The position numbers and the translations under genes are program-made. From Schizochytrium sp. TIO01 (Eukaryota > Sar > Bigyra > Thraustochytrida > Thraustochytriidae): 64,000 nucleotides of DNA. Of the stretch, positions 1 to 62,967 are shown in pieces. Each line of letters opens with the position of its first letter. Positions within the stretch are counted from its first letter, which is position 1. The stretch is from contig SMSO01000032.1 in assembly GCA_004764695.1 (NCBI GenBank), forward strand, positions 4,773,483 to 4,837,482. Direction: 5' to 3'. The notes under the pieces were generated by a model, which did not search any database, had not been told where the DNA came from, and saw only the letters and a program-made list of their open reading frames with translations.

Positions 1-482
1 GAACACAGGGGCCTAACGCGTCCCTGAGAACGGTGAGTGTATACTGTATAGGATCTCTGCAAGCATCTGCTCTTGCCTTAACACCTGCCAAGATAGATCC
101 GTCTCGTTTGGCTTCAGTTCATGCCTGGAGCTGAGTCACAATATCTATTCTCCTCGAGCTTTTGCTGCTGCTTGCACTGCTGCTTTGGCTGGACCTAGAG
201 GACAGGTTGGATAGGTTCTGGCTGAGGAAGAGGAGGTTATATATTTGAACGTGCTGGAGCAGGTCCTGTAGAATACAGTTGTTTTACTCGTTGAAGTCCT
301 TGGTTGCTTGGTTGACTAACTCGTTGAATATCTTGCATACGATCAATCCCACCTTATTTTAATTTATTACTACGTGGATACAACTCGTGCAAAATTGCGT
401 GGCTAACACAGCTTTGCAAAACGAGGGCAACCTAGGCAGCTCTCTAGAAAAGCTTGAGGCGTGTATTCCTTGTGGAGAGCTT
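1..482. other. 5' flank of VPS35
   Basis: No gene is visible. The stretch is the presumed promoter and 5' leader of the plus-strand VPS35 gene. A GTGAGT donor-like site lies near position 31, so a leader intron or the end of an upstream transcript is possible. The reading frame of VPS35 is open back to about 387, but it contains no ATG before 483. Confidence 0.4.
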
Positions 483-3269
483 ATGGCAGCATTGGCAGGC
501 CGAGGAAGAGGCGCTGCGAGATCGAGAAGAGCATCCGGACCGCAGGCATACCCTAGCATGGACCAACATGATGATATGGCGCGTCGCCTTCGCGATGCGT
601 TGCGCGATGTTGAGGAGAATGCCTTCCATATGAATCGTGCCATTGATGCGAACAACCTTGATGATGCAATCAAGTACGCCCAGAATATGCTCCGCGAACT
701 CCGATCTGGTGCGCTGTCACCGCGCCCTTACTATGAATTATGGATGAAGATCTTTGACTACCTGCGTCAGCTGCACTCATACTTCTTGGACATTAATAAC
801 AAGGGAATGCCAATGGAGGAATTGTACAGAAAAGTACAGTCTTCGAGCTTTATCATTCCGCGCTTGTACCTCATGATTACTACGGGCTCAGCTTTCCTCA
901 TGTCCCAAGAGGCATCTTCGCAGGAGATTCTTACGGACTTGATCGAAATGTCAAAGGGCGTCCAGCACCCAATGAGGGGTCTCTTTCTACGCAACTATCT
1001 TTTGAAGATGACACAGGATAAGCTGACATCGGAGTTCGATGTCAGCACCGAGTTTGCCATCTCCTATGTTCTCCAAAACTTTGGAGAAATGAACCGACTT
1101 TGGGTTCGTATGCAGCACCAAGGCAACCCCAAAACCCGTGCCCGCCGAGAAAAGGAGCGCCAGGACCTAAAGGTTCTCATTTCGTTCAATCTTGTTCGTC
1201 TTTCGGAGTTCGAGGGAATGACCTCCCAGGTTTACCAAACCTCTGTACTTGGCCAAATTCTTGATTTAGTGACAAACTGCAAAGATACGATTGCTCAACA
1301 GTATTTGATTGATGTTCTGGTTCAGGTTTTCCCTGCTCAGTACCATCTTGATACTCTGGAAAGACTTTTTGCTGCTTTTGAGCACCTTGAGCCCGCAGTG
1401 GACCTGAAATCCGTCTTGGAAAGCCTCATGGACCGCATCAAATACTACGGCGAAGAGGAAGACGAGGAAGATCAGGAGACTGAAACCGCAGAGAAGTCAA
1501 TCCAACCGCCCGCTCCTCCTAGTGATAAGACAGAGGACGCTCCTTCTGCAAAGGAAGATGCTGATGATGAAGATGCTGTAGATGAGGAACAGGGTGAGGA
1601 TGCCATTGATGATGAGGCTCAAGATGAGGACGAGGATAGTAAGCAAGGTGAACCGAAGGAATCGGAGCCAGCACCGATTGAATCAAACGGTGCAGAGGAA
1701 AAACCGAAGGAGCATGGAGTTCCTGCACGTGCGTACCAACTTATCAATGAAGTGGTGGCAAAAACAATTGCTAGTCGTCAAGACTTGAACCCCGAATCCG
1801 TTTTAGAACTGCATGTGTCTATGCTGGACTTTGTAGTTGCTTGCTACCCAGGTAATCTTGAATACCTTAGCAGTGTACTAGGATATTGTGCCGACTATTT
1901 GGAGAAGCATGAAGAGGCTGTACGTGCTCAAAATCTCGACCCTCTTGTCATGCAACTCCTCCGGGTCCCTCTCAAACAACAAGAACTTGGGTCGCTCGAC
2001 CTTCTCCGCCTTGAGCACTACCCTAACCTTATGGCTCGCCTAGCTAAGGTTGATAGTAAAATGAAGGTGGCGCACTGGTTTCTGCAGCATGTACTCTCTG
2101 ACGCAGACCTCCGTCTTAGCAAGCCCGAGGAGGTCACTGCCTTGCTTAGTTTTATTTCTCCCCTTGTTGCCAATGACCCGGCCAGTGGTGGGGATGCAGG
2201 AATCACTGCCGGGTTCGAGTCTCAGCAACAGACTGTAGCAAAGTTTCTTCACCGCGTTGATTCTGAGGACCCAGCGATGCTTTTTGAGATTCTTAACATC
2301 GTGCGGAAGCAGCTTTCCAAGGGAGGCTTAAACCGTATCCGCTACACACTTGTGCCTCTGTCCATGAGATACATTGACCTCGTAGATAAAATCCTTGCAG
2401 TTCGCTCTTCAATTGATGGTGATGCTGAAGAGTCACAAAAGGATGAAGGTAACAATGATAACCAGGATGGCGACGAGGATGATGATGATCTTCTCGGCCT
2501 TGGGTCGAGCAAAAAGAACAACGATGCTGTTAGTTTGCGCAAAATCTTTCAAATTCTTCACGAGCTTGCATCCTCTCTTGGTGCAAATGTAGACCTTCAA
2601 CCGATGGCCATGCGCGCTTTTCTGCAAGCTGCTTTGTCCGCGGATCGTGCTCGTGAACAAGAAATTGCGTACGAACTCATGGTACAAGCGTTTACACTGT
2701 ATGAGGATGTCGCCGACTCCAAGGAGCAAGTGCGCACATTGCCAGTGCTTATCGGCACGGTCATGGAAACTCGTGGCTTTGACAAGGACAACTATGATAC
2801 ACTGAGCACTAAGCTGACACAATATGCAGCAAGGTTGTTGAAGAAACCAGACCAGTGTCACATGGTCCTTTCATGTGCTCATTTGTATTGGCATCCCGAC
2901 TCCAAGCGGGACGGTTCTGAAACCGATGAAGACGGTGCCATCGGCCAAGATTCCAAACGTGCAAATGAATGTCTCCAGCGTGCGTTACGCATTGCCGACT
3001 CTTGCATGACCCCATCTACTCATGTGGCTCTTTTTGTGCATATCCTGAACCAGTTTCTCTATTTCTTTGAAGCTGGTATGGACAAGGTGACCGCTGAGAA
3101 GGTAAACAACCTCGTAACCCTTGTGAAACAGAACTTTGACGAGATTGATGCCGAGTCGGAGGAGCGATCTACTGCTGAGCTTCATTTTCGCAATACAATC
3201 GCACACCTGAAGAGTCTTCAGGAGAAGCAACCAGAGAAATACAGTGCTGTGGACCTTGGTAGTTTGTGA
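483..3269 (+). CDS. VPS35: VPS35, retromer cargo-recognition subunit
   Basis: This encodes the large alpha-solenoid subunit of retromer, the endosomal coat that returns cargo receptors to the Golgi or plasma membrane. The signature near the N terminus (PRLYLM, then KGVQHPMRGLFLRNYLL) is the VPS35 hallmark that binds VPS26. LWVRMQHQG, IRYTLVPL and a C-terminal LLKKPDQ...CAHLYW block also match the family. The protein is 928 aa, longer than the roughly 800 aa of animal VPS35. The excess is mostly an acidic Asp/Glu-rich insert at about residues 323-413, with a shorter one near 640-675. The start is the first in-frame ATG; a second ATG at 558 opens on a sequence closer to the usual VPS35 N terminus and may be the real start. 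It is one uninterrupted exon and converges on the RING-LON gene. Confidence 0.97.
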   Translation: MAALAGRGRGAARSRRASGPQAYPSMDQHDDMARRLRDALRDVEENAFHMNRAIDANNLDDAIKYAQNMLRELRSGALSPRPYYELWMKIFDYLRQLHSYFLDINNKGMPMEELYRKVQSSSFIIPRLYLMITTGSAFLMSQEASSQEILTDLIEMSKGVQHPMRGLFLRNYLLKMTQDKLTSEFDVSTEFAISYVLQNFGEMNRLWVRMQHQGNPKTRARREKERQDLKVLISFNLVRLSEFEGMTSQVYQTSVLGQILDLVTNCKDTIAQQYLIDVLVQVFPAQYHLDTLERLFAAFEHLEPAVDLKSVLESLMDRIKYYGEEEDEEDQETETAEKSIQPPAPPSDKTEDAPSAKEDADDEDAVDEEQGEDAIDDEAQDEDEDSKQGEPKESEPAPIESNGAEEKPKEHGVPARAYQLINEVVAKTIASRQDLNPESVLELHVSMLDFVVACYPGNLEYLSSVLGYCADYLEKHEEAVRAQNLDPLVMQLLRVPLKQQELGSLDLLRLEHYPNLMARLAKVDSKMKVAHWFLQHVLSDADLRLSKPEEVTALLSFISPLVANDPASGGDAGITAGFESQQQTVAKFLHRVDSEDPAMLFEILNIVRKQLSKGGLNRIRYTLVPLSMRYIDLVDKILAVRSSIDGDAEESQKDEGNNDNQDGDEDDDDLLGLGSSKKNNDAVSLRKIFQILHELASSLGANVDLQPMAMRAFLQAALSADRAREQEIAYELMVQAFTLYEDVADSKEQVRTLPVLIGTVMETRGFDKDNYDTLSTKLTQYAARLLKKPDQCHMVLSCAHLYWHPDSKRDGSETDEDGAIGQDSKRANECLQRALRIADSCMTPSTHVALFVHILNQFLYFFEAGMDKVTAEKVNNLVTLVKQNFDEIDAESEERSTAELHFRNTIAHLKSLQEKQPEKYSAVDLGSL

Positions 3270-48276: not shown

Positions 48277-50282
48277 GGGCTCTAAAATGAGAAACCCAGA
48301 TGTGTGTAGAAAAGAAGGATCTTGTTTTGATCTTGTTTTGCAGGGGTTTTCAGTAGCCTAATTCTCAGTAACAATATTAGCAGCCTTTTCAGAGCACGAG
48401 GTAGAGAACCACGAAAGGAACAGTGCAAAAAGAAATACTAGAACGAGCTGCCAGCTTTGCACCTCACCAGCACGAGGACCAAACAAACACCGCTTTGACC
48501 CTTCTTCCACAACAACTGAGTTGTGCAGATTCGAGGTCCACTGTATATAATTCCAACAAGAAGAAGAAGAAGAAGAAGAAGAAGCAAAGAGCCGCAATAC
48601 CAAGCGCTTACGTCAGTCTCAAAACTGTCCTTATGTTCCACCCTCCAGGTTGTATCCCTTTGCTAACCTCAGGGAAAACAATAAATTTTTAAACAACAGT
48701 AGACTAGTAGTCGTCCTCGAAGCCAGACAATGTAACAATAAGAACCAAGCCCAGCTTCCGTGGTCCCGAATTCAAGTGACGACAAACCGTCTGTAAAACG
48801 GGCGAAAATATCCTAAGCTTTTCCAGTAAGGTTACCCGTTTCCTTGGAATGTATGAGAAGCTGAGCCTGTGGCCAACGCCAAGGAATCCTTGAGATTGCC
48901 ACGCCAAAGTAGAACTACAAGTCAATCGTAGTCCCGCTGGATTGAGTGTAGATACAAGAAAAACAGCGGCAAGAGTCACACCAAGAACACCAACCAACTA
49001 CCCGCAAACTGTGCTGACCTCGCCGGACCGTAGGTTGTCGACAAATTAACTCACACCTCGAGGGTACTCTTTGGCCATAACCCTCGCTCTCCCCACTCCT
49101 CGCAGCGCGCTCCCAGGGGTGCAAGGTCGATAGTCTCGCAATCGCTCGCCGCGGTATCGAAACTACAACAATACGGAATTGAAGGCCCCTTCGCTTGTCT
49201 CCCCTTCTCCCGGAATTCCATACATTATTCCCGGAATTCCTTATTCATCGGAGTTGGGGTGTACTCCTCGCATCAAAAATAGAACGGTCCAGAAGGTTAA
49301 TATTCATACCCACCTTTATTTGCTACTTAACTCCGCATATGCCCCCAAAGTTTCATATAGCATAAGCAGGTATTTATCGAAAAGAACAAAGTGCATCACA
49401 GAAATAAATACAAGTTTATAAGTGCCCAAGAGAGCGCACTTTCTCCGCGTAGTACTAGTAATGTAGGTAGTGGCCCGAATTGCTATTTCTGGCGCGTTTG
49501 CACGTGCCACGAACCCTCAACTGGCGATCGGGCGAGCGCGAGACCGCTCACGGGCGGACGCTCAGCAACCCTGCAGGCCTCCTGCGCCTGCTGGGTAGCG
49601 ATAACTGAGCCTCGGTGACGGTTGTAGACCCCGGGGGTCTGGCGGAGCCCATTTGGCGCGTGTCTTGGGGCCATTTTGCATCGTCAATTCAATTCACTCT
49701 ATTTTGCTCGCGCGTATTCTACCTCTGCTATCGAGTTGTGCCTGCGCTTGCTTGCCTGCGTGGCTTGGGGACAAAGGGGAAAGAGCTGAAAGTAACTGAG
49801 ACTCCACACTGCTTGCCTGGTTGCTTGAAACTTGCTTGCTTGAGAAGTGAGTAGGTACAAGGACCAAAGAACATACTATTACACATTTGTGTATACATCC
49901 TGTTTAGTTCCGTGTATAGCTTCTGCGCGATTGTGTTACGTATTCGAAGCAGAGCAATAGCACTGCAAGCAGCTTTTCTTGTGGAGAATCTTCGTTGGTT
50001 TTTCTTTACGCGTGCTCTCGTCTGGCTGTACGTGGCTCAGTAGATTGAGTGACTGCGTAGTGCGTATTTACTCTCACAATTTATTTGTACCTGGGCAGTG
50101 TAGACAACCTGAAGCAGATTTCTCAAAAGGTCAAAAGATCCATATTCAAATTGGGAGCGGTTACTGAAGAAGACTTTGAATTAGTTCTCAAGGCTATTCG
50201 AGCAAAAATTGGTTGCTCATTGGAGCTTTTATTGTGAAGGAAGTACCCCTTTAGAAGAAAGCCCTTAGATCTAATCATTAAA
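48277..50282. promoter_or_regulatory. divergent 2-kb intergenic region
   Basis: Upstream region of LSM8 (-) and the giant kinase gene (+). It contains a (GAA)n run at 48557-48584. Short frames here have no recognisable features. Confidence 0.4.
48557..48584. repeat. (GAA)n microsatellite
   Basis: Nine AAG/GAA units about 280 bp upstream of LSM8. Confidence 0.9.
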
Positions 50283-53200
50283 ATGGGTACGACTTTCTCA
50301 AGCGGAAATGCCGCAGCACAAGGAAATCTTCAGGAGTCTTGGGAACGTCGCATGGAGCATGGTCTTGAAATGAGCTCTGGTCTGGGATCCCAAGGCGACC
50401 TACAGGGATTAACAGAGAGTGAAAAGAAATCGCTTTGGAAACTCAAGAACACGACTGCATCGGAGGCAAGAAAGCAATTTGAGCACGCACTTAGGGGCTC
50501 AAACCTGTTCAAACAGGCAAACCGAGAACTCGTGACTGAACTTTTTGATGAAGCAGTACCAATCTTTGTGAAGAAGGATCAAGTCATTTTAGAGAAAGGG
50601 GCAGTAGGACAAGTTATGTTTATTGTAGTTAAGGGTGCCGTTTCTGCCCACAAGAATTCAGATCTCTCTCATTACAGACTAAGACAGCTAAAGGACTCTG
50701 GTGATATGATAAAGCAGTTTCAGAGCTTTATTAAAGGACCTGAATACTCAAGTTCTGATGATGAGCAGAATGATCTGGATAGCGATAATGACTTTGATGA
50801 TAGTGGGGATATAGAGGAAAGCGAGACTGAGAGTGATGGCCCTGGTCATGGAAGCCCAAAGGATAGTTCTGAGTACCCTGAATCTATTGCATCTTCTGTT
50901 TCTTCTCTCTCAAATTTAAAAAGAAGACTGAGCAGACGCAGATCAGAGATGCTCAATGTTCAGGTAAAAGGTACTGATGACACACCTTCTAACAATGTTG
51001 CAAACGCACGTGCGCAATCCTCCGTGGAACATGACCGAAGCAGGACCCCAGATAAGGTGGTAGATTCTTCTCAAAGCCAACACAAGACCCGGCTCGAGAG
51101 AAATCGCACTTTAAGAGGTCTTTTCAGTCGCCGCAGGATTGATACTTCTGAATCGCGATCTTTGGATGATAACAAACATGCCCGACAGACTCTGTCAACT
51201 GTTGGTACTGGAGTTTCTAACGCCACTAGTCTCTCTTCAAGTGAGCCAAGAGAGACCTTTACATCGGGCAGCAGCCGCAGCGACCTTATCGACGCTATTG
51301 AAACCGTAGAAGATAAGGAGTATGGTCATGTGGGTCATCTGATTCGTGGTACTACGAGGATGCAAAAGTCCCTCGGTCCAGGACGTGCTTTTGGTACTCA
51401 TTGCGTTCTTGTGAACACACCACATTCTTGGACGGTTTCTGCAAAACGAGACACTTTATTGCTGGCAATTCATCGGGTTCAGTTTCAAGAAGTTACTCAG
51501 CGTGTGTCCCAGCGAAGTCGCCTTCGCGAGGACGAGAAAGAACGTGAAGGCTGGCTATTGCGGTTTCCTTTCTTAGCCCAACTCAAACCAGAGAGCCTCT
51601 CCCAGCTTGCCAAGGAGATAACATCGTGCTCATTTGCACCAGGAGAAGTTGTTTGTGGATACGGGGAGCCGCTTGAAGGCATGTATGTAGTAATGACAGG
51701 AACACTGGCCTTTCGTAGCACCAACGGGGAAGAGGTACGCTGGTTCCACCAGGGGGATTGTGTTGGCCGTGGCATTTTTATGCTTGCTTCTGACAAACTC
51801 ATGGCACGTTGCAGAGCGGCCTCTCTTGAAAGTGGCCTTGAAATTGCTGTTTCAGGAGAAGATCATGTAGAGTGCATCTTTCTTGAATGGAAACGTTTGG
51901 TACAGCGTAGCTCAAACTACCCATCGTTGAATCCATTCTTTGCCTCAGGCTCAATCAAGTCTCTTATCACTGGTGATGACCGCAAAGCTGGTAAGGCGCT
52001 AGCACAACAGCAGCTGCAGCTGCAGCTGCAGGAGCACAAGCTTACTCAGTCTAAGGCATCTTCGAACAAAGATGCTGTCCAGACTGAGAATCAGGCTGAG
52101 ACTTCTTTGATTGAGATTGGTGCTGAAGTTAGTATAAACCTAGCACGGGATGCGCTCCAATCATGTCCGCTGTTCGCACTCTTAGATATGAATGAAATCA
52201 GCGATCTCGCTGAAAGCTTTGAGCTTTGCATCTTTGACGATGACGACGAAATATTCTCAGAAGGTGATGCCCTCGATGATGATCAAGCAATCTACTTAAT
52301 TCTGCATGGTGTGGTTGAGCTGTCTGGTCTCGTACTACCTTTCTGGGAGTTTGCTCAAACTGCTGTGCTTGCAGAGCTCAATGAAAGGAATCTCCGCAAC
52401 GATAGCAGGTGGAGTACCAATTCTTACTCCCCACTGCGGCGCGGATTGAGTCAGCAATCCCTTTCACCAGATTCGATAGATGCAGTAACATTTGCCCCAC
52501 CTGGCGTTGTAGGACGTACAAAGGATCAAGTGCTGCTGCTGGATGGAGACACCTTTGGTGAAGAGTGCTTAGAACGTGGTTCGCGAGGTGTTCACTCTAC
52601 CTCCTGTAAGGCGCTTGGAGCAGTTGTATGCGCACGCATACCAAAGGACCTCCTTGAGCGCGTCGGAGTACTTGAGAAGGTCCAGCGTGTTTACCTTGGT
52701 GCATACCAACCACCTACCTCAGAAATCAATCGTCGTAAATCCTCTACTTCCTCTGCAGGTAAGCGTCCTGCATGGCGCCGCCTTGCTGCGATGTCACTTG
52801 CTGAATCCTTCTCTATGAGTGACAACTTCTTACTTCTGCACGACCTTCTTGAATTCGAGCCTGGCGAAGACGGCACGATGCAAGCGCGGCGTCGCTCTCT
52901 TATGCGCACAATCAATCGTGAAAATCTTAAGGTTGTTTCAAGACTTCATGAAACTCGAACGACCAATGTTTTCCTGGCACTCCATGCCCCAACCATTCAA
53001 CTATGTGTAGTCAAGAGTACAAATGTAGAGCGTGCGAATGAAGATGGTATGGGTCGTTTTGTGTTGACTGAGCAGACGATTCTTTCACAAGTCGAGAGTC
53101 CATTTATCATCAAACTTCTTAGTGCTTGGAATGAAAGCCCGTCAACTTTGGTGGCACTTGAACCGGCTCTGGCTGGCTCTCTTGAGCACCGCTTGACAGT

Positions 53201-54614
53201 CCTCCCAAAAGGTATGCGTAACCAGTTTGGGGGTATGCCTTTTCACATATGTCGCTTTTTTGCTGCGGGTATTCTGATGGGTCTAAAGCATCTTTATGAA
53301 CTACGTATTGTGCACCGAGATATCAAGACAGTCAATATATTGGTGGATCATCATGGATATCCTAAACTGGCTGATTTTGGCGTGAGTAAAGCTCTGGATC
53401 ATCGCACATCTCGCACTGCAACTTTTGTTGGTTCTCCACGATTTATGGCCCCAGAGCAAGCTGCTCTCGCTAGTGGAAACAGCAGTGGCTACGGAATTGG
53501 TGTCGATTGGTGGGCCTTTGGCTGTGTGCTGTACAAAATTGCAACCGGTGAGGACTGTTTCTCAATCAGTCGTCCGCGCCGCGCACAGAATAGTAGTGGG
53601 GCACAACGTAATACAAGTACAGACAGCTTTGATTCCATCCTCGGTTCTATTATGAGCTTTGGGGAAAAGCACCGTAGTAAGAGTGGTTTGAGTCCATATG
53701 AAGCATTAACAGCACGCCGCAATGACCGCCATCTGAAGTATTTTTGTGATGGCGCTCTTAAGATGATATCCACGGATGAGGCCCGAGTCTGGCGTATATA
53801 CGGTGAATTCGTCGCGGCTCTACTCCACCCCGATGCTAAATTACGCCTTGGAGCGAACCATTGGGGCCCTCGCAGTGCTCAATACCACCCTCTTTTTCTA
53901 GAGATTCCTGAAAATGACATTGAACCGTGCAACTTTGATGCTCTATTTAGCAGACATATTCCTGCCCCATGGGTTCCTCGGCGCGAAGATCTTATTGTCG
54001 ACGTCAATCAGCTGCGTCGGATGCACAAGGAAATTCGATTGGAAAGACGACAAAAGAAGTCACAAGGTCCCTCCATGCAGGTGGTTATGGAGGACGATTC
54101 TGATTCTCCCGACGAGGAAGATGATAAATCTGACTCCGAAAGCCACAGTCGATCATCGAAGCGACTATCAGGCAGCGCCGCAAGAGGCATGAATTTACTT
54201 ACAGCAACGAAAAAGATGCAAGCCCTCTCAGTTGCAACACTACACACGGTGACATCGGAAGTTACGGAAGCTGACCAAGATGACCAGGCAATGGCTGATG
54301 AAGAGCGCAGCCCAACTATTGAGGAAGGTGTCCGACATCGCCTGGAAATTGAAAGCAACCAACTCATGGGGCCTTCACTGCGTCGTAAGCGTCAGCTTCG
54401 CGAGGAAATGATGCTCGCTAATAGAAGACGGGCTAAGATTTTAGAGCTCAAGCGTCGAACCCAAATGACCGGGTCTATCGGGGCAGCGGTTCTTTATCGT
54501 GTTATATCAGCTGAGGAGCACCATCAGGGAATGCTTTCACAAGTTGTCCAGGATGCCATCCAAGCGCATGCCTCTATCGCTAGTGGTGATGACAAAGATT
54601 ACCATTCAATTTGA
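50283..54614 (+). CDS. giant PKG-like kinase with three cyclic-nucleotide-binding-type domains
   Basis: A 1443-aa protein. The N terminus MGTTFSSG fits an N-myristoylation site (Gly2, Ser6), suggesting membrane attachment. Three CNB-fold regions follow: one at about residues 69-400 split by a ~200-aa acidic Ser-rich insert, one at about 423-545, and one at about 623-810. Their phosphate-binding cassettes are degenerate (AFGTHCVLVN, CVGRGIFMLA, FGEECLERGS). The usual Glu survives only in the third and the usual Arg-Ala/Thr pair is not clear in any. The kinase domain (about 879-1220) has Lys911, HRDIK at 1011, DFG at 1031-1033 and FMAPE ending at 1058, but its Gly-rich loop is replaced by SRLHETRTTNVF. 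A charged, partly coiled tail follows. The order resembles PKG. Ligand binding is doubtful; catalysis is plausible. Confidence 0.93.
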   Translation: MGTTFSSGNAAAQGNLQESWERRMEHGLEMSSGLGSQGDLQGLTESEKKSLWKLKNTTASEARKQFEHALRGSNLFKQANRELVTELFDEAVPIFVKKDQVILEKGAVGQVMFIVVKGAVSAHKNSDLSHYRLRQLKDSGDMIKQFQSFIKGPEYSSSDDEQNDLDSDNDFDDSGDIEESETESDGPGHGSPKDSSEYPESIASSVSSLSNLKRRLSRRRSEMLNVQVKGTDDTPSNNVANARAQSSVEHDRSRTPDKVVDSSQSQHKTRLERNRTLRGLFSRRRIDTSESRSLDDNKHARQTLSTVGTGVSNATSLSSSEPRETFTSGSSRSDLIDAIETVEDKEYGHVGHLIRGTTRMQKSLGPGRAFGTHCVLVNTPHSWTVSAKRDTLLLAIHRVQFQEVTQRVSQRSRLREDEKEREGWLLRFPFLAQLKPESLSQLAKEITSCSFAPGEVVCGYGEPLEGMYVVMTGTLAFRSTNGEEVRWFHQGDCVGRGIFMLASDKLMARCRAASLESGLEIAVSGEDHVECIFLEWKRLVQRSSNYPSLNPFFASGSIKSLITGDDRKAGKALAQQQLQLQLQEHKLTQSKASSNKDAVQTENQAETSLIEIGAEVSINLARDALQSCPLFALLDMNEISDLAESFELCIFDDDDEIFSEGDALDDDQAIYLILHGVVELSGLVLPFWEFAQTAVLAELNERNLRNDSRWSTNSYSPLRRGLSQQSLSPDSIDAVTFAPPGVVGRTKDQVLLLDGDTFGEECLERGSRGVHSTSCKALGAVVCARIPKDLLERVGVLEKVQRVYLGAYQPPTSEINRRKSSTSSAGKRPAWRRLAAMSLAESFSMSDNFLLLHDLLEFEPGEDGTMQARRRSLMRTINRENLKVVSRLHETRTTNVFLALHAPTIQLCVVKSTNVERANEDGMGRFVLTEQTILSQVESPFIIKLLSAWNESPSTLVALEPALAGSLEHRLTVLPKGMRNQFGGMPFHICRFFAAGILMGLKHLYELRIVHRDIKTVNILVDHHGYPKLADFGVSKALDHRTSRTATFVGSPRFMAPEQAALASGNSSGYGIGVDWWAFGCVLYKIATGEDCFSISRPRRAQNSSGAQRNTSTDSFDSILGSIMSFGEKHRSKSGLSPYEALTARRNDRHLKYFCDGALKMISTDEARVWRIYGEFVAALLHPDAKLRLGANHWGPRSAQYHPLFLEIPENDIEPCNFDALFSRHIPAPWVPRREDLIVDVNQLRRMHKEIRLERRQKKSQGPSMQVVMEDDSDSPDEEDDKSDSESHSRSSKRLSGSAARGMNLLTATKKMQALSVATLHTVTSEVTEADQDDQAMADEERSPTIEEGVRHRLEIESNQLMGPSLRRKRQLREEMMLANRRRAKILELKRRTQMTGSIGAAVLYRVISAEEHHQGMLSQVVQDAIQAHASIASGDDKDYHSI

Positions 54615-55010: not shown

Positions 55011-58000
55011 CTAAGCATACGAAGGTCTAGATTCCCTTTCCAACATGGCCTCAAGCCTCGACTCAATCTCAGCAAAATTAGGTCGCTGCGATGCATCGGC
55101 GCTCCAGCACTCTCGAATGAGTTCTTCCATGGGAACAGGAACGTTGGAAGGCATGCGAGGGCGCAAGCCTTCGCGAGCCACTTGATAAAGCACCTGAGTT
55201 GCGTGCAATCTCGGGTAGGGTTGTCTACGAGAGTAAATTTGCCATAAGACGACAGCAAATGAGTACACATCTGCTTTTGCAGAGTAACCATCGTCACGCG
55301 ATACTATAACTTCGGGGGCAACCCAAGAAGCTGTACCTACAAAAGAGCGGACAGATTGGCTCTCAAGTTTAAATCGTGCAAGCCCAAAATCGCATACTTT
55401 GACAGTCAGATCAGGCATAGAAACGAGAAGGTTTGATGTTTTGATATCGCGGTGAAGAATTTGAGGATTAGATTCATGAAGCACTCTGATGCCTCTTGCG
55501 GCACCCAAGGCCAACTTGAGGCGCCACTGAGAGTCAAGAGAGTCTAAGTCCCATGAACTTCGAGAAGCGCTGCGCTCTCGGCTTGGAGTGACTGCACCTG
55601 CACCACGCTGTTTACGGCCCCGTCGCACAGTGATATGGTTCATATTTACAGGTTGGTTCTCTGGCAAGGCCCTTGAATGTGGTGCTGCATTGGCTGAGAC
55701 TTTATGATCATCCAAGAGAATGCCTAACATTGAACCAGAGGCGACTAATTCCATCACCAAACAGATATGCTGAGGTTGTGAACTCATTCCATAGAATGAG
55801 ACTAGATTTGGGTGAGCAGGGAGCCCTCGCATAACCTGTGCTTCGCGACGAAAATCAAGCAACGCTCGAGCGCTTAGGGATGATGTAGCATGGAATGTTT
55901 TAATCGCAACACGCTGGCCGTGAAAGACGCCTTCATGAACTTCACCAAAAGAGCCACGGCCAATACAGGTACCGAAGACGAGGTCGGCAGGGTCTATTTC
56001 CCATGCAGAATCATTTTGAGCCTGTGCCATGCGCTGCTTCTCATCGACTCCACCAAATCTATACAACATTGAAGAGTTAGTATTTTCTTGAATTGGTGCC
56101 AAGATATCTAAATTCTCCTGTACATAGCTCGTGCTACGGTCAATACTACTCTTTGAAAGGTTGTTCTGTTGCTGCAACACTGAAGATGCGCGAGCATATG
56201 TGTTACCAACTTGATCATCTATTGTAACTATGTTTTCCACTTCATTTGCCTCAGAGCTGTCCTTTGCGTCGTTTCCGATGTCAATTGGCTCCGAAAGAAC
56301 TGGTACTTGAGCTTCAAGAGAGGAGAGGAGTTGAGGCAGAAAGTCTTGCCACATTCGTGACTGCTGGCGCGCATGTTCGATTTGGTGTTGTACGAAGGTG
56401 GTTACGTGATTGATCATCTCCTGTTTGTTTCTCGAAGCAAGCCATGTAGCTTCAAGTGACGCATCCGCGCGCGTGCTTTTCACCTTGTCTTCAAGATTAG
56501 TAAGGTTTTCCTTAAGGCGTTTTCGTTCAGTCGGGTTTACTTGCTTGGCTCTTGATCCAGTAGCCTCACTGCTGTTATTGTTATTAGTGTTCTGTACATC
56601 ATCTTCATCATTAAGACCTGCGTGAGCGCCCATGTGTATACTTTCTAGGAGAGATCGCTTGATGCGGCATGAACGCTGTAGCAAAACGACTGAATGAGCA
56701 CGGTTTTCAAACCATGCAGTAGATTCCTCCAAAGAACGATGCCACTCTTTGAGTTGCATCTTGGTTTCCATTGTGCGAATACACGCAGCACGATTTGAAG
56801 TCGCTGTTAAGACATCAATTCGAGACAAGGAAGATAACAACTCTACGACAGCCATTGCCGAGTATGACAGTGGCAGCCTGTCATTAGTGAGGGGTACTTC
56901 AGAAAAAATATCAGCTTCGCACGGCGAACGACCCTCCGCCGTCAGTGGTGTATCTGCTCCAAATGCGCACCTAAGCTCCTGTACACGGCGAGGGTCACTT
57001 GCCAATTCACGGATCTCGGGAAGTTCAGTTGCTGCAAGAAATTTACACGCTTTCGCTCTGCTCTCTAGAAGTTCTGCTTGGCGTACGTAACAGGCGGCAA
57101 GCTTCTCCATACGTTTATAACACTTTCGCAGATTTCGCTGATACTCACCACCAAGAATCACGCGAACATCACCATCTCGGTGGCGAGTGGAACCTGTTAG
57201 TAAAAGTCGATTCAGGGTCTCTATATCTACCGTGGCGTGTTCAGCAATTCGCTGTCCATTGTGCAATATAACATTCGGTTTACGGTGTGCAATATCGACA
57301 ACTTCGTCACTAGCCATTGCTGACGAGGCCCATTCAGCCGATTTCCTCCTTCTTGAGCGCTTGTCCCTAGCTCGTTGGGAGACCCGTGCATAATATTCTG
57401 GTTTTGCTTGATCTAAAGGGCATCTCTGAAAGAAGGTTTGCGTTGGTTCAGCCTTGTGGAGTACAGGGTGAACTACGATAATAGCGATAAAGTGCTCAAG
57501 AGCGTGCATGCGTGCATCAAGAAAGGTTTCATTGAAACGACCTAAAAATTGTTTTCGAGGAAGCGGTGGAATGACACTTTCGTCACCATACCATTGTGCC
57601 AGCTCCTCGCGTAGCCAGGTAAAGTCACTATATCTTCGAAGTACCTCAAAGCCAGGGAGACCCTCGTTGCCCTCCACCAGAACACGAAAACTAGTAAACG
57701 AGCGTAACCCAAAAACTGCCCCAGGAACTGCTTGCTCAGCAATCTCTAAGCGGATGCCACAGGCCAGTTCGCTACGCCTTGGTACCCCTTCGTTGTCAAT
57801 TTGTGGGTCAATAAACTCTTTGCCAACAAACAGTACTTGCACAGCTCCATCAAATCCAACCATTGCACGTCTTAACAGAGGCTTTTCTGAGCTCAAGGTC
57901 TTGCTTGATGAAATATGGAGGCTCCATTGCACAACCTCCTTTAGATTGTCAAGTTTTTGGGGAAGAATTGCTACACGAACCCTTTCTACAATATCATACC

Positions 58001-59030
58001 AAGTCCCACCACAAGCACCAAAGTTTCGTACTTCAGAAATAGTTTCTTCCAATACCTTTTCTCTGATTTTTGTCACTAAATCTACTTCGGCATTGGCAGC
58101 GTTCATCTTTTTCTCAAGGGAATAAGAACTTGAGATCTCCTCTTCGTCTTCTTCCGTGATCGCCAGTTGGTAGTGATTTATAATGGGCTGGCGTGATTTG
58201 TGAAGTAGGAGTTCGTTGAAGAAGTCTGAGGGTAGGACAGCAAATCCTACTGGGTCAGAGCTCTCGTAGCCAAGGAAACGTGTTCGAAAACACGATTCGC
58301 AGATGCAATGAACCAAGGCGTCTTTAAAAGTTGCAATGCGCGAGCTTTTTGAATAATCGCCTCCAAGGACCTGCCAGGATCCAAGTGTGTTCTTCGCGCA
58401 GAGGAAGCAATATCTGAACCTCTCCTCCGCAGTTGCTGAGATAAACTCGTCGGCGTGAACGTAGAGAACCTGGGCTCCTGAATCTGGAGGAGCAGGAAGC
58501 CTGACAATAGGTTTACCGTGGAGTTCTTGCCGTCTTGAACAGACTCTCGTTGACTGCAAGCTCAGCTCCTTTGCTACCGCTTTGGCAGCCTCCGAGTCCT
58601 TGCTTATGCCAAGCTCCTCTAGAACCTGTGCTGACGTACACCCCACGTCTGCAAAGGTCTTCACCACGTCCACGACGCGAGCTGCCACAATTGCAGAGAT
58701 TGATTTGCTAGCGCTTTTTTTCCCCTGACCAGCGACTCCAGATTTGCAGTCCTCAGCGCTGTCGATTTTGCGAATATTGGCGTTCCCGAGGTTGTCGTTC
58801 AGAAAATATTTCTGCTCCGCGATGTTATGGTGTTGCTTCGAAATCAAAGTAGATGCAGGGCTGCCAAGAGCACTTCGGGTGGCGTGCGCCTTACGAGGCT
58901 CGTCCGGGCCCTCGTTTTGCGGGTCCAACAAGCCCAGTTGCCGGTGCTGCGTTGCTGCCGATCTCGGCGCAGCGGCGTCGAGCTTGAGCGTGGCTCCGAC
59001 GCAGGGCTCTCGTGCAGGCTCCGTGGGCAT
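55011..59030 (-). CDS. PX-domain / helical / TKL kinase fusion protein
   Basis: A 1339-aa single-exon protein with an unusual order. An N-terminal region (about 50-330) has two helical repeat-like units and Cys pairs (CFLC, CICESC). A PX domain sits at about 430-535, with the phosphoinositide-binding RRYSDF at 465-470, PPLPRKQFLG, and RMHALEHFI. A helical region (about 590-880) is in the position of the BAR domain of sorting nexins. A protein kinase fills the C terminus (about 1010-1335): Gly loop GRGSFGEV, VAIK, HRDIKTSN at 1193, DFG at 1214, SWVAPEV, and a C-lobe of tyrosine-kinase-like (Raf/MLK) style. All catalytic residues are present, so an active kinase recruited to PI3P endosomes is a fair inference. 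The start is the first ATG; the frame is open slightly upstream without ATG. Confidence 0.93.
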   Translation of the reverse strand: MPTEPAREPCVGATLKLDAAAPRSAATQHRQLGLLDPQNEGPDEPRKAHATRSALGSPASTLISKQHHNIAEQKYFLNDNLGNANIRKIDSAEDCKSGVAGQGKKSASKSISAIVAARVVDVVKTFADVGCTSAQVLEELGISKDSEAAKAVAKELSLQSTRVCSRRQELHGKPIVRLPAPPDSGAQVLYVHADEFISATAEERFRYCFLCAKNTLGSWQVLGGDYSKSSRIATFKDALVHCICESCFRTRFLGYESSDPVGFAVLPSDFFNELLLHKSRQPIINHYQLAITEEDEEEISSSYSLEKKMNAANAEVDLVTKIREKVLEETISEVRNFGACGGTWYDIVERVRVAILPQKLDNLKEVVQWSLHISSSKTLSSEKPLLRRAMVGFDGAVQVLFVGKEFIDPQIDNEGVPRRSELACGIRLEIAEQAVPGAVFGLRSFTSFRVLVEGNEGLPGFEVLRRYSDFTWLREELAQWYGDESVIPPLPRKQFLGRFNETFLDARMHALEHFIAIIVVHPVLHKAEPTQTFFQRCPLDQAKPEYYARVSQRARDKRSRRRKSAEWASSAMASDEVVDIAHRKPNVILHNGQRIAEHATVDIETLNRLLLTGSTRHRDGDVRVILGGEYQRNLRKCYKRMEKLAACYVRQAELLESRAKACKFLAATELPEIRELASDPRRVQELRCAFGADTPLTAEGRSPCEADIFSEVPLTNDRLPLSYSAMAVVELLSSLSRIDVLTATSNRAACIRTMETKMQLKEWHRSLEESTAWFENRAHSVVLLQRSCRIKRSLLESIHMGAHAGLNDEDDVQNTNNNNSSEATGSRAKQVNPTERKRLKENLTNLEDKVKSTRADASLEATWLASRNKQEMINHVTTFVQHQIEHARQQSRMWQDFLPQLLSSLEAQVPVLSEPIDIGNDAKDSSEANEVENIVTIDDQVGNTYARASSVLQQQNNLSKSSIDRSTSYVQENLDILAPIQENTNSSMLYRFGGVDEKQRMAQAQNDSAWEIDPADLVFGTCIGRGSFGEVHEGVFHGQRVAIKTFHATSSLSARALLDFRREAQVMRGLPAHPNLVSFYGMSSQPQHICLVMELVASGSMLGILLDDHKVSANAAPHSRALPENQPVNMNHITVRRGRKQRGAGAVTPSRERSASRSSWDLDSLDSQWRLKLALGAARGIRVLHESNPQILHRDIKTSNLLVSMPDLTVKVCDFGLARFKLESQSVRSFVGTASWVAPEVIVSRDDGYSAKADVYSFAVVLWQIYSRRQPYPRLHATQVLYQVAREGLRPRMPSNVPVPMEELIRECWSADASQRPNFAEIESRLEAMLERESRPSYA

Positions 59031-60761: not shown

Positions 60762-61764
60762 TCAGTCCAGAGAACCGGAAGCAAAAATAAATCACAAATC
60801 TACCGCTGTTTGCCCCTCCACTTGCAACACGAATATCTATCTGTCTTGGGGTCGTCAGTGGTCCTGACAATGTAAATATGCAGCTTGTAAGAAACTTGAT
60901 GTGTAGTTTCAAAGGCTGCTTAAATTGAAAAGGTGCTTCACTTAGACATATGACTCAATTGGTTCGTTTGTTTCTTTTTTTAATTCAAAATAAAATAAAA
61001 TAAAAAACAATCACAATAATGAATAGTTGAATATGACTACAGAGATAGTCAGAGCCGTTGTGCTGCCATGATAATTGTTTTAGCTCGAGTGTTTACCCAA
61101 ACTAAAAGGTTTCAACGGGACGCCTCTGGTTAATGAGAGTGTTATGCTGCAAGTAGGAATAGTTAAAGTAGAGCAACATCATGTTAATACCTGCGAGAAT
61201 CAAGCGTTTCAAGATTGATGCTGTGGCTTATATTGAATCGGCAGCCCTCTATATTTTGGGCAGGAGCTGAAAGGCCTTAAGGTGTGGAGATCTGCATGAA
61301 AGGAGAACCAAAACTTCCGCTGGTGCGTACTACCAAATACTTTCACTATCAATAAACGGTATTCTCTTTTTACCAAGATGCGGTTGAGATACTGACTCTT
61401 CTATTAAATTTCCAACTCACAGAGAGAATATTATATATTATAGAGCAAAATTTAATTCAGAGATGCTGTAGGTGTGTTGCAGCCGTTCTTAGACTAAACA
61501 GAGTGTAAGGGCATGCTCTCACAGCAGCACATGCAGCAAACAACATATTACCGGGCCACCAACTGCAAAAGGGTTGAAGTGCTACAAAAATCAATACTAG
61601 ATATCAGTCATTGACAACGTTGCTCGTGAGCCGCGCAAGGAGATAATCCTGAGATTGTATGCAGCTTTGGAACGTTTCACACGTGTGTTATTTGGCATTA
61701 TTCGGTGCTGCTCAGTACTGTTAGGTTCGCCTGCCAAGTTTGCTCAAGCATACTCTATTTCCGA
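60762..61764. other. 5' flank of the P2X-like gene
   Basis: About 1 kb, AT-rich in places, with no supported gene. Presumed promoter and leader of the P2X-like receptor. Confidence 0.4.
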
Positions 61765-62967
61765 ATGTCCTTCCAAGATTACCTTAGGTACTTCATTCGT
61801 CACAAATCAGCTTCTTATATTGTTGTTGAAAATGTCAAAGTTGGATTGGTATTGAGATTTACCCAATTCGCGGTATTTCTTTACATGTCATGGTCCCTTC
61901 TTGGCTTGAAATCGTACTTTGAATTTCAAGCTGCTGATGGTTATGCAAATCTTTGGCTAGATAACTTTTCTCAAACCATTCCAACCCCCCTGCCTCATTA
62001 CTGCTCAAATGAAAGCCTCAACTTTGTGTACAATGAAGCCTGGGTTTATCAGAATCATAGCTGCCGTCCTTTTGCATTTGGTGAGGTCTTTGACAAGCGC
62101 AGTGGAGAGTTCTTTATCCTGACATATATGCAAGAAACCTGGAAACGTTTTTCTGAATGCAATGAAACTACGCTTCAGTGCAAGGTCAACGACATCGTCA
62201 AAGTCAAGAATTCATTTGTGCCAACCATTGATACTGTTGAGATTGGATTTGATCACGTTTTCAGCACCGACTTTCGCTACGGTAAAAACGTAGCTACAAC
62301 CCTTGTTGGATCTAATGGGGAAACTATCAAAGAATTTGCTGTTGGCGTGCCTGGGTCAATATCTCTTCAGGACATACTGGATATTACAGGTATACATAGT
62401 CTTGACGGAAAAAATGACGCTGCATATGTGGAAGGTTCTACTGGAACCGCTATTTTCCGCATGACTGGGTTTAATGTAAATCTTCGTTTAGAATACCAGA
62501 ATTCTGACACGTGGTCAGGGAAGGTTGTGACCGCAAAACTTCATGTCGAGCTTGTAGACGCTGGATGGGGTACTATTGGGCCCAAAGTCGATTATGCAGA
62601 TCTTTCTATCAACGAAGATGGCCTTACCTCGTTCTATGTAAGAGACACATATTCCTATGGCATTCGTATTACTATTGAAGCAACTGGGAACATTGGACGA
62701 CCAGATTTCGTTACAGCTGTGAACTCAGCTGTAACATTTTCCGTTCTGTTTGCCTTAGCTGGAATTGTGGCAGATTTTGCAGCCTTCCATACTCCAGAAA
62801 TTTCAGAAAAGTTTCGTAAGAAAAAACGCACAACCGTTCGCGAAAATACAAGAAGCATTCTTTATTTGGAACCTGGGAACCAGGGTTCATCAAAAATCAT
62901 GCCACGAGACTCTAGTACTTTATGTCAAGATGATAAAAACAAAAACACTTCTTACGAGGGAAAATAG
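61765..62967 (+). CDS. P2X-like ligand-gated cation channel
   Basis: A 400-aa protein with the P2X layout: short N terminus, TM1, large extracellular part, TM2, basic tail. The start matches the family well: YIVVENVKVGLVLRFTQF then a Trp-containing TM1 and GLKSYFEF, compare the P2X pattern V-x-N-K-K-V-G-x-x-x-R-x-x-Q ... W ... G-Y-Q. The region before TM2 also matches (SYGIRITIEATGNIG near residue 298, compare YGIRF-x6-G-x-G), and TM2 contains the conserved Gly-x-x-x-Asp end (LAGIVADF). The Lys-x-Lys pair after TM1 that binds ATP in vertebrate P2X is not visible, and the usual ten-cysteine pattern is sparse. P2X channels in Dictyostelium act in contractile vacuoles. Ligand and location here are unknown. 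Confidence 0.75.
   Translation: MSFQDYLRYFIRHKSASYIVVENVKVGLVLRFTQFAVFLYMSWSLLGLKSYFEFQAADGYANLWLDNFSQTIPTPLPHYCSNESLNFVYNEAWVYQNHSCRPFAFGEVFDKRSGEFFILTYMQETWKRFSECNETTLQCKVNDIVKVKNSFVPTIDTVEIGFDHVFSTDFRYGKNVATTLVGSNGETIKEFAVGVPGSISLQDILDITGIHSLDGKNDAAYVEGSTGTAIFRMTGFNVNLRLEYQNSDTWSGKVVTAKLHVELVDAGWGTIGPKVDYADLSINEDGLTSFYVRDTYSYGIRITIEATGNIGRPDFVTAVNSAVTFSVLFALAGIVADFAAFHTPEISEKFRKKKRTTVRENTRSILYLEPGNQGSSKIMPRDSSTLCQDDKNKNTSYEGK

Follow-up and report, generated by a model that had tools for sequence, protein, structure and literature searches.

Locus and coding frame

We analyzed a 64,000-nucleotide stretch of the genome of the thraustochytrid Schizochytrium sp. TIO01 (contig SMSO01000032.1, positions 4,773,483 to 4,837,482; hereafter, the window), with the focus on a long coding frame on its minus strand, at window positions 55011..59030. 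The encoded protein of 1339 amino acids (aa) consists of an N-terminal third, a PX domain, a helix-rich region and a C-terminal kinase of the tyrosine-kinase-like (TKL) type. An earlier note on this DNA, made from the letters of the sequence alone, had described the product as a sorting-nexin-like PX module with a helical region in the position of a BAR domain, fused to a Raf/MLK-like kinase. In our assessment, this protein is rather likely to be a sorting nexin of the PX-BAR type with a TKL kinase fused to it.

The frame runs from the ATG at 59030 to the stop at 55011, with exact coordinates and strand, and all its 1339 codons lie in a single reading frame inside an open stretch of 1383 codons. 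Given the base composition, the chance of encountering that many stop-free codons is ~1e-33. In a comparison of codon usage, for which three genes from the window served as the training set, this frame ranked best of the six in all 14 blocks, also across the linker that separates the PX domain from the kinase, with a narrow win (0.21 vs 0.20) only in the final block of 39 codons. The GC content of the window, calculated per 2 kb, is 0.41-0.54. The gene reads as one exon, without introns, and a frame with no interruption speaks against two adjacent genes, or a fortuitously continuous frame, from which the PX and kinase parts would be made separately. One donor-like site (GTGAGT, at offset 1882 inside the frame) could accommodate such a split, but, with the 1383 stop-free codons and the coding usage of every block including the linker standing against it, we find this explanation hardly credible.

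The PX domain

The PX domain, delineated by Pfam, PDB matches and motifs, spans aa 445-545 (57396..57698, on the minus strand like all other parts of the protein described below), and the Pfam match itself, far above the cut-off, covers aa 461-536 (E 2.4e-17). According to the excerpted text of PMC6449406, four residues of PX domains (Arg, Tyr, Lys and Arg) are required for the coordination of phosphatidylinositol 3-phosphate (PtdIns3P). All four are apparently present here, namely, Arg466-Tyr467 (in RRYSDF), Lys493 (in IPPLPRK) and Arg507 (in RMHALEHF), as placed by motif and not by structure. The phosphoinositide-binding signature that the earlier note had read from the sequence is thus borne out, and the domain would be expected to bind PtdIns3P.

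The six best matches of this domain in the PDB were to SNX1 (1.2e-13; the plant protein, which is the best SNX1 match), Vps5 (8.3e-12 and 5e-11), SNX7 (2e-11) and SNX9 (7.3e-11 and 8.1e-11); as we take SNX7 and SNX9 to be SNX-BAR proteins, all six belong to this group. The PX domain of natural SGK3 gave a weak match (3.2e-4). For comparison, we used PX loci of the same genome, denoted here by L-numbers, of which there are at least 26 (26 matches at E <=0.001, counted in single frames only). The PX domain of L011, a PX-AGC kinase that served as a control, showed a different pattern, with nischarin and SGK3-type domains in the lead, natural SGK3 at 3.7e-11 and plant SNX1 at 0.0032, and in a second control, the PX domain of L030, the best matches, SNX16 and SNX25, were weak. 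When the 26 PX domains were placed in one tree, the domain analyzed here grouped (86/92) with those of L009, a SNX1-like protein in which Pfam detects Vps5 (2.6e-31), L010, a PX protein that, by eye, resembles Mvp1/SNX8, and L018.

Several observations pull away from a SNX-BAR kinship of the PX domain. The seventh PDB match is a designed CISK (SGK3) PX domain (8.9e-11), followed by SNX3, which has no BAR domain (1.3e-10), so that the margin is narrow, and human SNX1 and Mvp1 reached only 8.3e-6 and 2.4e-7, respectively. The grouping with L009, L010 and L018 did not survive when six long rows were taken out, and the approximately unbiased (AU) test rejected none of the 3 groupings tried, so the PX tree leaves the kinship unsettled. 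Because the grouping in the tree is not robust, the kinship rests on the PDB matches, themselves with narrow margins; by these matches, the PX domain leans toward those of SNX-BAR proteins.

These data also bear on a different origin of the protein, from a PX-targeted kinase of the SGK3 (PX-AGC) type in which the kinase alone was swapped for a TKL kinase. Three PX-AGC-like frames (L011, L023 and L033) are present in the genome, the CISK domain is the seventh match, as noted above, and the AU test did not reject a grouping of the domain with the PX domains of these three frames (p 0.156). In addition, the PX-kinases listed in Phytophthora infestans are of the PX-AGC type, as the excerpted Table 2 of PMC3019232 shows PX on 3 kinases, AGC only. 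However, the first six PX matches are to SNX-BAR proteins and natural SGK3 is a distant one, unlike in L011, and the PX domain is separated from the kinase by a spacer of 482 aa in which the SNX-BAR profile signal described below is located. A mere exchange of the kinase therefore appears quite improbable.

The kinase domain

The TKL-type Ser/Thr kinase domain (aa 1013-1332; 55035..55994), identified by Pfam, PDB matches and catalytic motifs, matches PK_Tyr_Ser-Thr (PF07714) at aa 1019-1326 with an E value of 1.5e-53, beating PF00069 (8.4e-45). The motifs that we looked for are all intact: GRGSFGEV (1024-1031), VAIK (1041-1044), FRREAQ (1060-1065), HRDIKTSN (1193-1200), DFG (1214-1216) and APE (1238-1240). 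We assume that these motifs play their usual roles, including that of the alpha-C Glu in FRREAQ, and the HRDIKTSN loop presumably confers Ser/Thr-type specificity. The kinase is apparently active, and the claim of a complete TKL-type kinase in the same frame as the PX domain holds.

Among the solved structures, the closest kinases are plant CTR1 (4.7e-49), TAK1 (5.2e-38) and MLT/ZAK (8.8e-38), whereas the MLKs and B-Raf follow lower in the ranking. For the kinase described as Raf/MLK-like in the earlier note, the TKL type stands, and the nearest solved kinases are others. The alignments of the N-lobe and the C-lobe to CTR1 are separated by a gap that corresponds to an insert of 56 residues (aa 1106-1161; 55548..55715) carrying the basic patch RRGRKQRGAG. 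Pkinase_C, which would point to an AGC kinase, had no Pfam match in the frame, unlike in L011 (7.9e-8); L023 and L033 gave values below the cut-off (0.025 and 0.068, respectively).

The helical region between PX and kinase

In a low-confidence AlphaFold model, aa 626-908 form a helix-rich stretch, in which four parts can be distinguished. The probable BAR helix 1 (aa 626-667; 57030..57155) was located by hhalign to a five-sequence SNX-BAR profile and is helical in the model. The position of BAR helix 2 is taken by a helical stretch (aa 745-810; 56601..56798) that comes from the model and gives no signal at the sequence level. An Asn/Ser-rich loop (aa 811-832; 56535..56600), recognized by the composition of residues 813-832, connects the last two long helices, and the probable BAR helix 3 (aa 833-908; 56307..56534), supported by the profile and hhalign, ends in the SNX-BAR-like sequence HVTTFV..MWQDFLPQL.

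The evidence for a BAR domain comes from two SNX-BAR profiles, one built from four members (L009, plant SNX1, Chaetomium Vps5 and human SNX1) and the other from the same four and L010. With the four-member profile, aa 560-1000 scored 19.5 bits, compared with at most 9.6 in 2000 shuffles. When the 2121 stop-to-stop frames of the 26 PX loci were ranked, the whole frame took third place with 17.0 bits, behind L009 (318.5, but included in the profile) and L010 (24.7), and the next frame reached 7.2; reversed frames reached at most 4.6 and the other frames of the window at most 5.2. The five-member profile gave 19.0 bits, whereas none of 5000 shuffles exceeded 9.7; with five leave-one-out profiles, the region scored 17.1-21.5 bits. 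The signal of the four-member profile falls mostly at the end of helix 3 (aa 869-901; hhalign E 6.1e-5, probability 65), whereas the five-member profile reports helix 1 instead (aa 629-672; E 1e-4, probability 58), so that the two matches stand in the right order but each comes from a different profile. By segment, helix 3 scored 22.6 vs 15.5 for the best of 2000 shuffles and helix 1 ranked 4 among 1725 scoring rows. The failure of Pfam to detect a BAR domain (up to E 0.01) is shared by L010, the non-member with the strongest four-member profile score, and L018, one of the PX neighbors in the tree, shows no BAR profile signal (rank 17 of scoring rows).

Several results weigh against a BAR domain in this region. 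In the leave-one-out comparison, the omitted SNX1/Vps5 members scored 110-134 bits and L010 29.4, vs 17-22 for the BAR candidate, which must therefore be much diverged, and with the five-member profile, the best of the remaining non-member frames among the 2121 reached 10.6. The helix 2 segment has no signal (rank 393 of 1920 scoring rows), and a forced global hhalign alignment keeps the expected succession of parts, with insertions behind helix 1 and in front of helix 3, but with a probability of 1.3. Pfam detects no BAR or Vps5 domain in the frame, although it readily does so in L009, and a phmmer search of the PDB with aa 560-960 returned 0 matches up to E 10. The best Pfam matches below the cut-off, for the helical region and the N-terminal aa 100-440 taken together, were CheY-binding (0.036), KHA (0.042), NYD-SP28 (0.064) and KIP1 (0.072). 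The two single-sequence AlphaFold models have a mean predicted local distance difference test score (pLDDT) of 39.4 and 49.8, that is, low confidence, and Foldseek gave 22 matches, 0 of them BAR, with a best E value of 3.0. Structure prediction, which the earlier note had named among its checks, thus displayed no BAR domain, but models of such confidence and the BAR-less Foldseek result cannot refute the fold, and neither of the two outcomes that would have refuted the note (a non-BAR structure or separate PX and kinase genes) was obtained. No orthologue was seen either, in a scan confined to viral contigs that yielded 5 pattern stretches and 0 relatives.

The helices could, alternatively, be an ordinary dimerizing coiled coil that holds the kinase at a distance from the membrane, which would make the protein a PtdIns3P-recruited TKL kinase that does not sense curvature. 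Coiled-coil dimerization is known in some MLK-type kinases, and such an arrangement agrees with helices that have no credible Pfam or PDB match, a helix 2 devoid of SNX-BAR signal and a score far under those of the true SNX1/Vps5 members. Yet, the SNX-BAR profile signal exceeds those of all shuffles and of all frames except L009 and L010, and it lies directly downstream of a PX domain that itself leans toward SNX-BAR proteins. We consider a non-BAR coiled coil somewhat unlikely, albeit deserving attention. Overall, the region is a probable, strongly diverged SNX-BAR domain, and its homology to BAR domains is moderately supported by the profiles and, with less weight, by the PX domain leaning toward SNX-BAR proteins. 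The helical region in BAR position proposed in the earlier note is therefore better founded than sequence reading alone could show, although short of proof and with no backing from Pfam, the PDB or a usable model.

Comparison with known proteins and possible mechanism

SNX-BAR proteins shape endosomal tubules, and the kinases targeting them are, to our knowledge, separate proteins. The protein described here resembles SNX1, SNX2 and Vps5 in that its PX domain is closest to theirs and is followed by a stretch that matches both ends of the BAR profile, in order; it differs from them by the unrecognized N-terminal third, the insertions that follow helix 1 and precede helix 3, the weak BAR similarity and the C-terminal TKL kinase. 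Yeast Vrl1, of the VINE complex, is the closest precedent of an enzyme-carrying coat protein and is described in the excerpted text of PMC9507130 as a PX-BAR protein with a VPS9 guanine nucleotide exchange factor (GEF) whose activity needs membrane recruitment. As in our protein, a PX-BAR module in an annotation-free stretch and a signaling enzyme are combined in one chain, but in Vrl1 the enzyme is a GEF, not a kinase, and its PX-like domain (same excerpt) lacks key PtdIns3P residues, which are apparently present in the frame. Phosphorylation can control SNX-BAR coats, given that the phosphomimetic S226E variant of SNX5 cannot pair with SNX1 or SNX2 (PMC6231649, excerpted text).

Other kinases share individual features with this protein. 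In SGK3 and other PX-AGC kinases, the PX domain is likewise N-terminal to a protein kinase, which is of the AGC type where the frame has a TKL kinase. FES and FER, which we take to consist of F-BAR, SH2 and a tyrosine kinase, also join a domain of the BAR superfamily to a kinase, but the former is F-BAR rather than PX-BAR, SH2 is present and the kinase is a true tyrosine kinase; neither F-BAR nor SH2 had a Pfam match in the frame. The PXK-like PX pseudokinases presumably have degenerate kinase motifs, in contrast to those looked for here. The mitogen-activated protein kinase kinase kinases (MAP3Ks) CTR1, TAK1 and MLT (ZAK) are the nearest solved kinase domains, but none of their regulatory domains was found in the frame by Pfam. 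Among the literature matches listed, as judged by titles and the openings of abstracts, we recognized no PX-BAR-TKL kinase.

If the protein is, indeed, such a fusion of a PX-BAR sorting nexin with a TKL kinase, the PX domain would bind PtdIns3P, the BAR region would pair with itself or with another SNX-BAR protein, for example, the SNX1-like L009, and the protein would gather on curved membranes of endosomes or recycling tubules. Such clustering would increase the local concentration of the kinase, the kinases could then be activated by trans-autophosphorylation across the dimer or lattice, and the active kinase might phosphorylate Ser/Thr residues of coat partners or cargo, or locally start a MAP3K-type cascade via a downstream MAP2K. 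We infer the PtdIns3P binding, dimerization, location, order of activation and substrates alike. A more specific and tentative proposal is that the coat protein itself is a MAP3K-type kinase, which might be switched on by assembly of the PX-BAR lattice on PtdIns3P-containing tubules, converting curvature into phosphorylation, and which would likely act on its partners within the SNX-BAR coat of retromer. By uniting PtdIns3P sensing with probable curvature sensing and a kinase that looks active, one polypeptide would link the formation of tubules to signaling, as Vrl1 does for its GEF activity, and a coat-forming protein may thus carry its own switch enzyme.

PX-kinases in the genome

Protein kinases were identified in 5 of the 26 PX frames, three AGC-like (L011, L023 and L033) and two TKL (the 55011..59030 frame and L030), although kinase exons located in other frames would escape this count. 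The second PX-TKL frame, L030:868-5436 (minus strand), encodes a PX domain, a PH domain and a TKL kinase with, by eye, a long acidic insert in the C-lobe, followed by a long C-terminal tail. Like the frame studied here, it has a long spacer between the PX domain and the TKL kinase that follows, but it contains PH where our frame has the BAR-like stretch. The C-lobe of the L030 kinase gave 4.6e-15, vs 8.6e-34 for the best paralogue, a comparison that is weakened by the insert, which cuts the L030 C-lobe. Given that its kinase is not the best match, its PX domain matches other types and PH replaces the helices, the PX-PH-TKL protein L030 is probably a separate fusion, and two independent PX-TKL joinings are likely. 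PX would then have been joined to a TKL kinase on two occasions in this genome, which also has the three PX-AGC-like kinases, and the joining of PX domains to kinases may be a recurrent route. A whole-protein search of the genome revealed no second copy of the PX-helical arrangement, with 35 of the 272 candidates scored, so that a diverged copy could escape. Among the other PX loci, L015:4252-8118 (minus strand) encodes a PIP5K lipid kinase with a C-terminal PX domain in one frame, and in L019:4444-6687 (plus strand), PX is joined to the N-terminal domain of a family-28 glycosyltransferase.

N-terminal third and neighboring genes

For the N-terminal third (about aa 110-440), on which the earlier note is silent, no family was found, and a sequence search of the PDB with aa 100-440 gave 3 matches, none credible (best 0.35). 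A comparison of aa 101-205 with aa 306-425 yielded a BLASTP E value of 0.004 and ranked 5 among 1918 scoring rows in a test with 2000 shuffles, whereas the hhalign probability for the pair was 1.6. Two possible repeats, at aa 115-197 (58440..58688) and aa 322-407 (57810..58067), neither with a known family above the cut-off, were placed by this comparison. Between them is a possible zinc-binding stretch (aa 205-285; 58176..58418) with CxxC at 208-211 and CxCxxC at 242-247, motifs that were noticed by eye and come with no family match. These observations are suggestive only of a tandem repeat flanking a Cys-rich stretch at aa 115-407 (57810-58688), and the N-terminal third may be a regulatory or partner-binding part.

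The convergent neighbor of the gene, at window positions 50238-54611 (plus strand), comprises 1458 codons and encodes cyclic-nucleotide-binding domains and a protein kinase, an architecture resembling PKG. A borderline match to P2X receptors (E 1.4e-6, 28.1 bits vs a cut-off of 27) lies at 61630-62964 (plus strand). At the opposite end of the window, ~52 kb away, 363-3266 (plus strand) encodes VPS35, the core subunit of retromer (Pfam E 2.4e-230), a possible functional partner, although its presence here is probably a coincidence.

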